Below are positions 2,341 to 12,295 of a DNA stretch of 27,656 nt, piece by piece (position 1 is the stretch's first letter; each line of letters starts with the position of its first letter). Under the pieces are notes generated by a model, which worked only from the letters and a program-made list of their open reading frames with translations, did not search any database and was not told where the DNA came from. The stretch spans positions 1 to 27,656 of IMG/VR virus record IMGVR_UViG_3300042934_000505, one strand, 5' to 3'. Made by a program: the position numbers and the translations under genes. Source of the stretch: a virus.

Positions 2341-3305
2341 CGTACGCTACCGGCACCATCACTGACGCCAACCCGGGGCCGACGCTCTATGCGGCGATGG
2401 AGTCAACGTTCCTCGCAGCCGGGTTCACTCTCGTCGATACTGTGGTCATCTCGACCCGCACCCACAAGGTGCTCAAGTCGGATGCGGCAGACAATGACCG
2501 CGGCAAGACGTGGTATCTGGACATCCACTATCCCACCACGGGGATTACGGGTGGCATGTTCATGGCACCGTTCGAGGACTTCAACCCGACTACCGATCTC
2601 GCATTTCGTGGACCGTACACGGGTGCGAGCAACACGACGATTGAGTCAACTTACTACTCACGGTTCGGCGCGACGGGTAGCGCGCTCGAGGCTTCTTGGG
2701 CCAACACGGCATCTTTCACGAACCTCGACTGCGCCCTCACGACAGGCGCGATGGGATGGTTCCTGTCCGCGACGACGGATCGTGTGATCTTCATGTCGAC
2801 CGCAGCCCCCGCGGAACTGCACTATGTCGGGTTCTTCGAGCCGACTGCGGATCATGTGGCAGCCGCTGGTGCGGCTCTCTACCCACTGGTGGTGGCTCAC
2901 TTCAACACCGCCTCGTCGTCGGCCGCGTGTACGACATCATCGGCGGCATCGATGGCGTTTACACGCGTGCCTCCGATGGCTGCCATCAACTGGGGCTCGG
3001 CCGGTTTCATCGATATGCCATACGCCCAGATGGGCGGCACGATTGGGACGGGCGGCAATTTCGCTGCGACGGGGAAGACGAACCTCGCAAAGCGTCCCGT
3101 CGTCATGGGTACCGGTAGCCTGACGAGCTCGGCCGCTTCTGCTGCGACGGGTGGCCTTGGTCTCGTGGGATTCCTGATCGACGTGGCGAATTCATGGACC
3201 GATGGCACGGTTCTGCGTGGAGACGACCTGACTGACACGAACTCAGACGTGTGGACTGGTATCGAAGACAGCAGCAACGTCGGCCTCTGGTTTAGGCAGG
3301 TGTGA
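2337..3305 (+). CDS. Putative tail-tip or receptor-facing protein
   Basis: 322 residues from the ATG at 2337, which forms an ATGA overlap with the preceding stop. An ATG at 2325 is also in frame but lacks this coupling. The protein has no recognised motif. It is rich in Ala, Thr, Gly and Ser, with an N-terminal helix containing [19 protein letters not shown] and then mostly beta-prone sequence with many aromatics. No signal peptide or convincing membrane span is visible. Its position as the last large gene of the tail operon, after the collagen-like protein, suggests a fibre head or receptor-binding protein, but this is inference. Confidence 0.65.
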
Positions 3306-4932: not shown

Positions 4933-5276
4933 CCATCGCCACCGCTGCCACAGACCCAGGGCTCTGGGAGTCGGTACCACCCGCGGTATGGGGAACGCTC
5001 GGCATCCTCGGCGCCGCACTCCTCACCGCCGCCGGTGCCGTCTTCGGCACGTGGCTGACAAACAGACGCAACGCAAAAGTCGACGCCGGCCAACTCGCAC
5101 TCACCTACGCCCAAGGTTTGCGGGACGACGTGAAGAAGCTCGAAGACCGTGTGACGACGTTGGAGAACGAACGGAACGCGTACCGCTCCCACGCGCACGT
5201 CCTCCACGAGTGGGGCGGGTACGTGGAGACCTCCGACCGTCCACGCCCTATCTGGCCGGTGAACCTTCCCCGATGA
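4929..5276 (+). CDS. Lysis-cassette membrane protein with coiled coil
   Basis: 115 residues from a GTG overlapping the endolysin stop (GTGA). One hydrophobic segment at about residues 19-43 (VWGTLGILGAALLTAAGAVF) is followed by a basic NRRNAK motif, then a charged coiled coil at about 62-90 (DDVKKLEDRVTTLENERNA). One TM plus a cytoplasmic coiled coil is a common design for accessory holins or holin-like proteins in actinophage lysis cassettes. It is placed between endolysin and holin candidate, which supports a role in timing or forming membrane lesions. Confidence 0.65.
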   Translation: MTIATAATDPGLWESVPPAVWGTLGILGAALLTAAGAVFGTWLTNRRNAKVDAGQLALTYAQGLRDDVKKLEDRVTTLENERNAYRSHAHVLHEWGGYVETSDRPRPIWPVNLPR

Positions 5277-7192: not shown

Positions 7193-7238
7193 GTATAGAA
7201 CTATACAGCCCCTCGGGTCTAATGTCTAGTGCTATACA
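7192..7238 (-). promoter_or_regulatory. Leaderless promoter under two palindromic operators
   Basis: On the minus strand, TAGACA (7228-7223), a 17-base spacer and TATAGT (7205-7200) precede the ATG at 7192. Two 16-bp palindromes overlap it: TGTATAG-AA-CTATACA at 7192-7207 (perfect, covering -10 to start codon) and TGTCTAG-TG-CTATACA at 7223-7238 (one mismatch, covering -35). Their centres are 31 bp apart, about three helical turns. Confidence 0.7.
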
Positions 7239-8389
7239 GAAGATTCCCCAGACAGAAGTTTTTGAACTGCCCCCGCCGACGCCGGCCCGCGTGACGCTTG
7301 CTCCACGTAATGCCGCAGATTCCCGAACCCCGTATGCCCGAGCTGGTCACGCGCCGCCTCAACACCCAGATCCTCGGCAAGCAGCGTCGCCACCGCCTTA
7401 CGGAACGCCCCAGGAGTCACCGACGCGTAACCACTCCCCTCCAGAGCGGCCCGCCAATCCCTACGGAGGTTGTCAGGCCACCGCGGCGTCCCCGCAGCAG
7501 ACGGAAACACAAGATCCGAGTACGCCCCTGCCGCACGAGCCACGAGCATCGGCACAACAAACACAGGCAACTCGAGCTCGCGGCGGGACTTGTCCGTCTT
7601 CAGCGTCTCCTTCACGACAAGCTTCCCGTCGATGCTCCGCGCAACGGTCCCGTTGATCGTTACCGTGGGCGGCATCGAGTCGAAGTTGAAGTCAGACCAC
7701 CGCAACGCCAGAACCTCGGACGTCCGGGCGCCGGTTGCCGCGTACATGTCCATCGTGTCCCGCAGGCTTCCGTTCCGTGGGCGCTGGTACCTGTCGTACC
7801 CGGCATCCCACGTTTCCAGCAGGCCGCGAATGGCGGCGATGTCGTCCGCACGCAGCGCCTTCACCTTCGGTTTCGTCCGCGTCACCGCCTTGGTCTCCGG
7901 CACCGGGTTCTGATCCACCGCCCCCGCGTACACGGCATACGCCATCATGTGCTTCAACACGATCCGAACCGTCCGCGCCTGCCCTGGAGTCTTCTGCGCC
8001 ACAGCCTGGATGTAACGGTTCAGCTTCGCGGGGGTAGCCTCCCCAACCCGCACACCAGACAAACCCCGCAGAACAGCCTTCAACGCCTCCTGGTAGGTGA
8101 GTTTCGTGCCGTCCGCGAGGTTCGTGTCTGCCAGCATCTCCACCTTCCACGCATCCGCCAACTGCTGAAGCGTGGAATCACGGGTGATGAGTTCACCGGC
8201 CGGCGCCAGACGATCCCGCAGAGCTTCCTTGAGCGCGTTGACCGCGAGGGCCTTCGTCCGCCCCGTCCGCATCATGCGTCGCGTCTCACCGTCACTGTCG
8301 CGATAGTAGGCGCTGGCCGCAGGCTTCCCGTTGTGGGTGAACGTACGGATCGTCCCGTACGTCTCCAGCGGCAGCGGTGGCCTAGCCAT
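7232..8389 (-). CDS. int: Tyrosine site-specific integrase
   Basis: 385 residues, the usual length. Residues about 10-60 match the AP2-like N-terminal arm-binding domain (SAYYRDSDGETRRMMRTG), residues about 70-160 the SAM-like core-binding domain, and residues 175-365 the catalytic domain. Visible catalytic residues are Arg222 (ATGARTSEVLALRW), a Lys in KTDKSRR (264 or 267), Arg330 (GAFRKAVATLL), His352 (QLGHT) and the nucleophile Tyr361 (RHYVEQ). The first His of the HxxR box is replaced by Gly327. The start has only a weak ribosome binding site and lies 11 bases after the upstream gene, so translation may be coupled. It should act on the attP at 5679-5931 with the excisionase-like protein at 10500. 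Confidence 0.92.
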   Translation of the reverse strand: MARPPLPLETYGTIRTFTHNGKPAASAYYRDSDGETRRMMRTGRTKALAVNALKEALRDRLAPAGELITRDSTLQQLADAWKVEMLADTNLADGTKLTYQEALKAVLRGLSGVRVGEATPAKLNRYIQAVAQKTPGQARTVRIVLKHMMAYAVYAGAVDQNPVPETKAVTRTKPKVKALRADDIAAIRGLLETWDAGYDRYQRPRNGSLRDTMDMYAATGARTSEVLALRWSDFNFDSMPPTVTINGTVARSIDGKLVVKETLKTDKSRRELELPVFVVPMLVARAAGAYSDLVFPSAAGTPRWPDNLRRDWRAALEGSGYASVTPGAFRKAVATLLAEDLGVEAARDQLGHTGFGNLRHYVEQASRGPASAGAVQKLLSGESSV

Positions 8390-8400
8390 GAGAACGCATC

Positions 8401-8661
8401 TTAGGGCTCATCTACTTGCCAGGGCTCGTCGCGCCAGTCGTTCAAGCCGCGGTAGAAGACCACCCCGGGAGCGGTCATGGCCTGTGCAGTCTCGCCCGCG
8501 TTGCCCGTCTCGGATCCGTCTTGATTGAACTGATACCGAGTCATCCCGGTGATGCGCAGCACTTCGGACACACTGCCAGCCGCAACGATGAAACGAGCCT
8601 GGCCCATCGGCATCCCAGTCTTGAATCCCCGCCACCCATAGACCTTCATCCGCGCGCTCAT
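8401..8661 (-). CDS. Hypothetical protein between GIY-YIG protein and integrase
   Basis: 86 residues from the ATG at 8661, which shares its A with the upstream TGA; a longer start at 8679 is less likely. The sequence is beta-rich, with MKVYGWRGFKTGMPMGQARF and a later strand GVVFYRGLNDWRDEPWQVD. The repeated WRG/WRDE patterns and small size suggest a compact single domain. No family is recognised. Its place in the integrase operon suggests a role in establishing lysogeny, but this is inference. Confidence 0.6.
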   Translation of the reverse strand: MSARMKVYGWRGFKTGMPMGQARFIVAAGSVSEVLRITGMTRYQFNQDGSETGNAGETAQAMTAPGVVFYRGLNDWRDEPWQVDEP

Positions 8662-11061: not shown

Positions 11062-11387
11062 GCGCTCTCGAAGACGCCCGCGTGGCCCTGGCGCGCATCG
11101 AAGATCTGTGGGAGTCGCGGCTGTTCAGCACCGCCCTGAAACTTGCTCGCTCCACAATCGTGGGCCTGATCTACGAGCGTGAACACGTGACACCGCCCAC
11201 CGAAGACGACGAGCACGAGGCGCTGGCCCGGATCATCTGGGAGGCGAGCGGGGAGTTCAGCGCGCCGAGACGGGGGAGGGCCACGGCGTGGGGTGACGTT
11301 CGGGTTAGCGCCGCACGCCAGTCCGCCCGGTATATAGCTGAAGCCGCCATCGCCGCTGGCTTCCGCCGACAGGAGAAGGCGTCTTGA
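11058..11387 (+). CDS. Hypothetical protein (109 aa)
   Basis: ATGA coupling with the upstream gene. Mostly helical: LEDARVALARIEDLWESRLF, then HEALARIIWEASGEF, an AWGDVRVSAARQSARYIAEA helix and a basic AAIAAGFRRQEK end. The ALARIIWEA ... AAIAAGFRR layout recalls a short protein type common in actinophage early operons, of unknown role; this is recollection only. No TM, no catalytic motif. It ends in a TTGA overlap with a possible micro-ORF. Confidence 0.65.
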   Translation: MSALEDARVALARIEDLWESRLFSTALKLARSTIVGLIYEREHVTPPTEDDEHEALARIIWEASGEFSAPRRGRATAWGDVRVSAARQSARYIAEAAIAAGFRRQEKAS

Positions 11388-11461
11388 TTCCGTCTCGTCC
11401 TGTTCCGGACATCCTCACAGAAGACCCCGTACTCCCCACGGACATCCCAGAGCTCGAGTAA
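11384..11461 (+). CDS. Possible micro-ORF (25 aa)
   Basis: TTG start coupled to the previous TGA, with AGGAG eight bases upstream. It would encode MIPSRPVPDILTEDPVLPTD followed by IPELE, acidic and proline-rich. The ribosome binding site and overlap support translation; the size and TTG start argue for caution. It ends just before the long non-coding stretch. Confidence 0.45.
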   Translation: MIPSRPVPDILTEDPVLPTDIPELE

Positions 11462-11974
11462 CCCGAACTCGGCCACCCGCTCGGCAGGCGCTCACAGATC
11501 GCTGCCTAGCACTATTCGTCGCGCCATCGTGCGGACGGATCACAACTGAATCCCGCTCTATCCCGGAAACCACCGGCAGAACATGAGGCGGGCTAACTCA
11601 ACAGCAGAAAGTACCCGGAAGGGTTCTGTTAGCGGTGACGTGGTGGTTCGCGTGTGCCGATCGCAGTAGCCGGGGAGGTCCGAAGGCGGAAAGCCGAGAA
11701 GGATCGAAGGGAATTGACGACTGGAAACTTGGAGGTTCGCCAGTCGAGAGCAGCCTCTGTGTGCTGCTGATACATCAAGTTTTGGATTCGAGAGCTACGG
11801 GAGTCACGTTCCCTCATGCCCCTTCGGGAGTTGACGTGGCTGCTACACGGTCGTCAAGCGCGTAGAGGCGTACGGAGGCGATCAGGAACGGCTCGGATCA
11901 GCGCGACGTAGCAGACACCGGGGGAGCGAGTCCCCGGCGCGCACCGACCATCCATCACATCGAGAGGAATTGCC
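11462..11974 (+). ncRNA. Proposed large structured non-coding RNA (core about 11483-11937)
   Basis: No credible gene in 513 bases, yet the plus strand can form many helices: 11483-11506 (7 bp), 11520-11533 (5 bp), 11552-11592 with a nested CCGG hairpin, and 11592-11633 (GCTAA/TTAGC, CAGAA/TTCTG and CCC/GGG under a GGAA tetraloop). Others are 11718-11746 (7 bp), 11750-11767 (GCAGC/GCTGC), 11805-11838 (CACGT/ACGTG plus TCCC/GGGA), 11840-11914 (CTGCTAC/GTAGCAG plus GTCG/CGAC) and 11918-11937 (6 bp). CGCGCC at 520-525 of this kilobase could also pair with GGCGCG at 11936-11941. Size and ornamentation recall GOLLD- or ROOL-class phage RNAs, but no sequence match is claimed. It lies inside the early operon, sense to the genes. 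A structured leader for 11975 is an alternative. Confidence 0.55.
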
Positions 11975-12223
11975 ATGACCAAGACAGCCACATTCGTCCG
12001 CAACCTGACCGGGTACACGGGTGACGCGAAGCTCTACAACACCACTGACCAGGGCTACTTGATCGTGTCAGCCGTCGTCTTCCCGTACACCGGCCCCGAG
12101 ACGTACATCTTCCCCGCCGACGAGGACGGGGAAATCACCGACTGGCTCGAGCTTGACGGTTCGTTCCGGGGTGGCCTTGACCACGAAGCTGCGCTGGTCG
12201 GCGCCGGGTACACGGTCGCGTAA
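11975..12223 (+). CDS. Hypothetical protein (82 aa) after the structured region
   Basis: ATG with a strong GAGAGGA ribosome binding site. 82 residues, beta-rich and acidic: KTATFVRNLTGYTGDAKLYN, then YLIVSAVVFPYTGPETYIFP and ADEDGEITDWLELDGSFRGG. The pattern looks like a small beta-barrel or sandwich. No known motif. It is followed within seven bases by a 12-bp hairpin that may separate it from the next gene. Confidence 0.7.
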   Translation: MTKTATFVRNLTGYTGDAKLYNTTDQGYLIVSAVVFPYTGPETYIFPADEDGEITDWLELDGSFRGGLDHEAALVGAGYTVA

Positions 12224-12229
12224 CGACTT

Positions 12230-12267
12230 GTGGGGTTCGGTTCGGCCAAGGGGGGACCGAACCCCAC
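12230..12267 (+). other. Perfect 12-bp RNA hairpin between genes
   Basis: GTGGGGTTCGGT (12230-12241) pairs with ACCGAACCCCAC (12256-12267) around a 14-base G-rich loop. No T-tract follows, so it is not a standard terminator. It ends 28 bases before the next start codon. Confidence 0.7.
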
Positions 12268-12295
12268 AACACACAAACGAAAAGGGGCGGTAGAC

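Follow-up and report, generated by a model that had tools for sequence, protein, structure and literature searches.

The gap and its relatives

The window is a virus record of 27,656 bases, and the region of it examined here, 11462-11974, is bounded on reading the sequence by a stop codon TAA at 11459-11461 and an ATG at 11975. The locus consists of the following parts, with a tRNA-like element (TLS) at the 3' end of the RNA:

11384-11461, plus strand: upstream cistron, a 25-codon ORF with a TTG start and a TAA stop, ending ...SRPVPDILTEDPVLPTDIPELE (sequence reading); 5' limit of the gap
11462-11594, plus strand: 5' segment exchanged among relatives, outside the conserved RNA (alignments)
11595-11899, plus strand: body of the structured non-coding RNA (identity to relatives, frame-breaking indels, covariation)
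11900-11945, plus strand: TLS, a tRNA-like minihelix (match to covariance model R1, E = 5.5e-9)
11975-12223, plus strand: next cistron, an 82-aa DUF7572 protein (Pfam PF24457, E = 8.5e-8)

Conservation among the relatives defines a unit of 11595-11945; the ATG at 11975 follows the TLS at a distance of 29 nt. The DNA of the upstream 25-codon ORF is near-identical in the alignment of L010, L045, L201 and L135; being almost invariant 5' of the structured RNA, this ORF could encode a microprotein. A GC-rich, terminator-like palindrome at 12225-12287, about 95% conserved in most relatives, forms the far boundary of the stretch where relatives carry different genes after the RNA. Elsewhere in the window a tyrosine integrase (Pfam PF00589) is encoded on the minus strand at 7232-8389, so that the phage is probably temperate, and a long plus-strand ORF overlapping it (7298-8404) is likely spurious.

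The original prediction held that the richness of structure in this gap far exceeds that of a normal untranslated region. By folding energy this fails: region 11462-11974 has a minimum free energy of -190.6 kcal/mol against a mean of -197.1 for dinucleotide shuffles (z = +1.0), 83 of 100 shuffles fold as well, and z is 0.03 for 11590-11945. Folding energy was dropped as support for a structured RNA, the region being no better than its shuffles. The covariance search against Rfam that had been proposed as a check matched no family, either at the gathering threshold or at E up to 5, in keeping with the description of the element as undescribed, and ARAGORN called neither a tRNA nor a tmRNA. Since the folding energy is ordinary and Rfam is silent, the case for an RNA must rest on relatives.

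Pattern scans of the viral collection yielded at least seven homologous loci (L135, L250, L249, L252, L248, L045 and L201), which together with the window are the eight loci compared below; L010 and L269 form a diverged pair besides these. Among the matches listed, the known members are the eight close loci and the diverged pair, and they come from a few metagenomes. L251 and L253-L259 were chance pattern matches, a scan of the genome collection returned chance matches only, and the plasmids searched gave no good match. Over the body the window is 97% identical to L045 and L201 and 74% identical to L135 and L250; genes nearby are about 88-90% identical in L045 and L201, compared with the 97% of the body. 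Neighbouring phage genes are common to the window and those homologous loci tested, and the body sits at the same operon position in most homologous loci. At the corresponding position, L010 and L269 have a folded RNA of diverged sequence, which shares the motif CTGATACATC and the tRNA-like end. A clean mobile insertion with L010 as the empty site is ruled out by this RNA. It also bears on the idea that the body, with about 350 nt and a complex fold, is a self-splicing intron or another known ribozyme: no exons are joined by removal in L010, and the Rfam search without a match covered group I and group II introns, so that we find this scarcely plausible.

A reading frame conserved across 11462-11974 was sought in the relatives and none was found, the longest open frame varying by locus. 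Indels of 1, 2, 5 and 8 nt among the relatives break the frame; because of these indels and because no frame is open in all relatives, a coding reading of the region is ruled out. The gap, flanked by a stop codon and an ATG, is gene-free as had been claimed. Its extent as an RNA had to be reduced from the whole of 11462-11974 to the conserved unit, which starts at 11595 because the preceding segment is not common to all relatives: L045 and L201 carry a different sequence there, and so do L249 and L252 (alignment). The segment 11462-11594 is possibly a promoter or leader. Pairings between the 5' and 3' ends that had been thought to close the RNA use this exchanged segment and are not a feature of the family.

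What follows the RNA differs among the loci. A DUF7572 gene lies behind it in the window and in L010 and is absent there in L045, L201, L135, L249, L250 and L252. On sequence reading L135 has an HNH-like gene downstream, L249, L250, L252 and L269 have other genes, and L045 and L201 are without a nearby gene after the RNA. This variation argues against a gene-specific leader or riboswitch. Although a gene follows the body in the window as well as in several relatives, that gene is not conserved and is missing in L045 and L201, so that a leader or riboswitch for it is largely refuted and highly improbable. A cis-acting RNA that antiterminates transcription, as do the put RNAs of phage HK022, would work on RNA polymerase over the remainder of the operon whatever gene follows, and the body is indeed non-coding, structured, placed inside an operon and independent of the next gene. 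However, put RNAs are much smaller than the roughly 300 nt of the body, and the RNA of L045 and L201 is followed by a terminator-like palindrome with no intervening gene. We give antitermination a slim chance.

Helices of the RNA body

Comparison of the eight loci yields the following helices, all on the plus strand:

11600-11630, plus strand: P1 arm, 11600-11604 with 11626-11630 and an inner stem of 11613-11616 with 11621-11624; paired in five loci
11633-11659, plus strand: P2, 11633-11636 with 11656-11659 and 11638-11642 with 11651-11655; five loci, one-sided change only
11719-11745, plus strand: P3 hairpin, 11719-11724 with 11740-11745; paired in all eight loci
11749-11768, plus strand: P4 hairpin, 11749-11754 with 11763-11768; paired in all eight loci
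11785-11899, plus strand: Pa, closing helix of the 3' domain, 11785-11792 with 11892-11899 (locus-by-locus pairing)
11803-11840, plus strand: Pb, 11803-11810 with 11833-11840; 100% of cells paired, two-sided changes in four of eight pairs
11812-11868, plus strand: candidate pseudoknot, CCUC 11812-11815 with GAGG 11865-11868; invariant in all eight loci
11849-11883, plus strand: Pd, 11849-11853 with 11879-11883, enclosing Pe, 11858-11862 with 11869-11873; two-sided changes in both

Pa, P3 and P4, which MAFFT misaligned, were read locus by locus instead. Pa is paired in all eight loci with differing sequences, namely GATTCGAG/CTCGGATC, GGATTGGT/ACCAGTCC or GGATTCGAG/CTCGAGTCC. P3 occurs as GACTGG/CCAGTC, GGCTGG/CCAGCC or GAGCAGG/CCTGCTC, and P4 as AGCAGC/GCTGCT or TCAGGCG/CGCCTGA, followed by the conserved TGATACAT. 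When Pb, Pd, Pe and the candidate pseudoknot are taken together, 99.4% of the cells in the eight loci are standard pairs and six pairs show two-sided changes; the covariation score is 0.349, compared with at most 0.149 when the partners are slid. RNAalifold lengthened Pd by further pairs with two-sided changes. Because the sequences are related and small in number, shuffle counts are not probabilities here, and weight is placed on the slid controls and on direct double changes. As CCUC and GAGG are invariant, covariation neither supports nor refutes the candidate pseudoknot. Another pseudoknot, between the P3 loop AACUUG and CAAGUU after P4, was dropped: in L135 and L250 the loop is altered while its downstream partner shows no corresponding change, and the pairing also competes with the inner P3 stem.

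Two individual helices of the original prediction fared differently. The arm with a GGAA tetraloop is kept in five loci, trimmed to 11600-11630 (P1), but its change from AACAG/CTGTT to AATAG/CTGTT is one-sided only. The 11-bp, two-part junction stem of 11840-11853 with 11904-11914 (CTGCTAC/GTAGCAG) is absent in all seven relatives and exists in the window only because the linker copy of the window's TLS is abnormal. The central proposal of a structured non-coding RNA gained no support from folding energy and is borne out by compensatory changes, which are present in at least five body helices across the homologous loci. Two observations that would have counted against it, an ORF conserved in homologues and helices lacking covariation, did not turn up. 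On this comparative basis, it is well supported that the body is a real structured non-coding RNA of a family absent from Rfam.

The tRNA-like element and its copies in other phages

The most informative part of the RNA is its tRNA-like 3' end, which the original prediction overlooked. The TLS comprises 44-46 nt and is made up of an acceptor stem, a D-loop-like linker with GG, a T-arm with a TTCRA loop and then AC. It adjoins the body directly, Pa ending at 11899 and the TLS starting at 11900. In the window its parts are:

11901-11905 with 11938-11942, plus strand: acceptor, 5 bp
11906-11917, plus strand: linker
11918-11923 with 11932-11937, plus strand: T-stem, 6 bp
11924-11931, plus strand: T-loop
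11943-11945, plus strand: ACC tail

The TLS has neither a D-stem nor an anticodon arm, the linker measuring only about 11 nt, and with its acceptor of 5 bp it offers 11 bp coaxial with the T-stem, compared with 12 in tRNA. Model R1 detects one strong TLS in each family record, always at the 3' end of the RNA; that of L010 is weak. The copy in the window deviates at 11906-11931, where the GG of the linker (GTAG) and the TTC of the T-loop (GAGCGAGT, 8 nt) are lost, whereas relatives such as L201 have an intact TLS. This deviation fits a loss of elbow contacts or a sequencing error, and the window copy may be impaired or decayed or may reflect an error of sequencing or assembly. In L045, a further tRNA-like stretch lies just 3' of the TLS on the minus strand (5070-5200); it has the ends GGTGCCG...CGGCACC and two T-loop motifs, and ARAGORN makes no call there.

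BLAST of the region against phage records matched only its last 45-85 nt, in short hits to Streptomyces and Gordonia phages, and the matched stretches contain GGTTCGAGTCC, which is a tRNA T-loop. With model R1 we counted eight TLS copies in Streptomyces phage Joe, nine in Verse, seven in Mycobacterium phage Thumb, 11 in Zenon, three in Gordonia phage Aleemily and two in Microbacterium phage PhillyPhilly. The negative control phiC31, whose host genus is that of the Streptomyces phages, had no copy, its single match being insignificant (E = 0.7). An exact-core scan of the viral collection matched 61 stretches with up to six copies per stretch. The TLS stands alone in these phages, unannotated and with many copies per genome in Streptomyces and Mycobacterium phages and fewer in Gordonia phages. 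Joe (L260, 43054-47676), Verse (L264), Thumb (L262) and Zenon (L266) carry such unannotated intergenic mimics of the tRNA elbow in multiple copies. This multi-copy phage TLS is probably the wider discovery behind the finding in the window; a search limited to open-licence papers found no description of it.

The aligned consensus has a 5-bp acceptor-like stem, the linker ACYGGCAGACA, a 6-bp T-stem, the loop TTCGAGT and AC plus one base, the linker resembling a tRNA D-loop (A..Y GG C A) minus its stem. Across 31 distinct copies all cells are paired, with two-sided changes in 10 of the 11 pairs, and 99.7% of cells are paired in a second group of 33 that partly overlaps the first; both alignments were fitted to model R1 and hence lean towards it. 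In the MAFFT-aligned set A2, 98% of cells are paired, with two-sided changes in seven of 11 pairs. T55, C56, R57 and A58 are invariant in 58 seven-base T-loops, 58 of 60 linkers contain GG, and the tail reads AC(T/G/A/C). These conserved unpaired bases are those of the tRNA elbow, which is more than a plain hairpin requires. The existence of the structured RNA together with its TLS is well supported.

Tyrosine integrases that use tRNA genes often have attP cores matching tRNA 3' ends, and the phage carries a tyrosine integrase, so the tRNA-like stretch could be conceived as an attP core. A tRNA fragment, however, would not show covariation between the 3' acceptor strand and a 5' strand about 11 nt upstream of the T-arm; moreover, there are up to 11 TLS copies per phage, and phage Joe has a serine integrase with its attP annotated elsewhere. 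These observations rule out an attP core as the main reading and leave it a next to negligible probability.

Nearly all copies in Joe, Verse, Thumb and Zenon fall between genes and share the strand of those genes. A TLS typically starts 5-14 nt after a stop codon and ends 30-50 nt before the next start; exceptions include a Verse copy within annotated gene 74 and a few copies whose spacers are longer. Median distances are 9 nt to the stop and 45 nt to the next start in 302 distinct contexts, collected with a strict pattern demanding full pairing. The cassette order of stop, tRNA mimic, leader and start is thus repeated, and in the window the body takes the place of the usual short spacer upstream of the TLS.

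Several further stretches were observed along the way. In Mycobacterium phage LittleE (L265, 3001-3044) a TLS overlaps gp35 on the opposite strand, upstream of gp34, and gp35 may be misannotated. Riemerella phage CRP6 (L267), a phage of Bacteroidota, gives two weaker matches resembling the TLS (2997-3034 and 3134-3177), both within a stretch that lacks genes, and the TLS may therefore not be confined to actinophages. Gene-free stretches of about 0.9-1.2 kb head TLS-bearing operons in Zenon (L266, 10395-11283), Thumb (L262, 3871-5064) and Morgana (L003, 1555-2500); compared with the RNA body, they showed no similarity to it.

Proposed TLS processing and known tRNA-like systems

We estimate a probability of about 0.55 that host RNase P and RNase Z process the message at the TLS, which would thereby divide up the operon and, in the window, free a structured RNA acting in trans. 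The tRNA elbow with an acceptor stem is the minimal feature for RNase P, RNase Z and CCA-adding enzymes, and bacterial RNase P makes an RCC contact that the AC(C/U/G) tail of the TLS suits. The TLS lies on the coding strand at the boundaries of cistrons, which suggests processing. We infer that 11595-11945 is transcribed as a non-coding RNA gene embedded in the phage early operon, with two modules, a multi-helix body of about 305 nt and a minimal tRNA elbow of about 45 nt at the 3' end. Host RNase P would read the elbow and cut at the 5' edge of the acceptor stem, possibly with additional cutting by RNase Z on the 3' side of the TLS. In other actinophages this would cut the polycistronic message a few bases past each stop, and in the window it would set the 3' terminus of the body near 11899. 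Once released, the body would act in trans in the infected cell as a structured RNA; this role is argued solely on the ground that the body has no fixed downstream gene. The window's own TLS, without GG and TTC, counts against the proposal, this copy being possibly impaired or mis-assembled. So do the 5-bp acceptor, the sub-threshold resemblance to mascRNA and the small number of known family members.

The TLS copies just past stop codons are also placed as terminators would be. They could remain uncut and serve as compact 3' folds that block exonucleases or stop RNA polymerase without a U-tract, the body then being a long stable 3' UTR. Yet a plain hairpin would need neither the invariant T-loop nor the GG of the linker, and with a terminator in every operon gap the genes further along would stay silent unless a promoter were present in each gap as well. 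We regard protection or termination as doubtful.

Among known systems, GOLLD and ROOL are nearest in kind to the window RNA, whereas mascRNA and mitochondrial tRNA punctuation are nearest in mechanism. mascRNA and menRNA, the RNase P/Z products of MALAT1 and NEAT1, are tRNA-like folds that delimit the 3' ends of these long non-coding RNAs. One TLS copy comes closest in Rfam to the mascRNA-menRNA model (RF01684), at E = 0.044 and 26.2 bits, below the threshold of 42.5; the window TLS gave no match to this model. In contrast to the mammalian elements, the TLS is found in phages, has a linker of about 11 nt instead of the D and anticodon arms, and is repeated between genes. In mitochondrial punctuation, tRNA structures between cistrons serve as cutting sites, and the TLS is likewise a tRNA-type structure between cistrons where cutting would be expected; however, it is not a tRNA, has no anticodon arm and is not called by ARAGORN. 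With tRNA itself, the TLS family shares the invariant TTCRA T-loop closed by a G-C pair, from which the window copy deviates, but not the D-stem and anticodon arm. The tmRNA, known in some phages, also joins a tRNA-like part to a larger folded RNA, as the window RNA does. Here, however, both acceptor strands of the TLS lie within 46 nt at the 3' end, unlike the tmRNA arrangement of 5' and 3' ends forming one acceptor stem together with a tag frame, and ARAGORN and Rfam detected no tmRNA.

GOLLD and ROOL are non-coding RNAs, large and structured, that phages and prophages carry, in many cases close to tRNA islands; their function is unknown (PMC12286853). The window RNA is also phage-borne, extensively structured, covarying and tied to a tRNA-like element, and the suggested trans action of the freed body would resemble that suspected for GOLLD and ROOL. 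Membership, which the original prediction had brought into play, is not upheld by Rfam; the window RNA has about 300 nt compared with 600-800 or more, and the element linked to it is a non-decoding tRNA mimic. The tRNA-like structures of plant RNA viruses are reported as a further case of viral tRNA mimicry at an RNA 3' end (PMC5723415); the TLS differs in belonging to a DNA phage, in being internal to transcripts and in its many copies, and aminoacylation is not indicated for it.

We see an even chance that many actinophages have operons punctuated by minimal, non-decoding tRNA mimics, which host enzymes of tRNA processing cut, and that one group of them has joined this signal to a new family of structured non-coding RNAs acting in trans in the course of infection. 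If the TLS is cut by RNase P or RNase Z, a widespread set of phages whose hosts are established laboratory species (Streptomyces coelicolor and Mycobacterium smegmatis) divide their operons via tRNA processing, a strategy so far best known from mitochondria. This would account for the regular gaps of 90-100 nt left blank in the annotations of TLS-bearing phages and would provide an annotation rule as well as a ready-made 3' processing signal, while the body represents a new structured RNA family that is open to direct probing.
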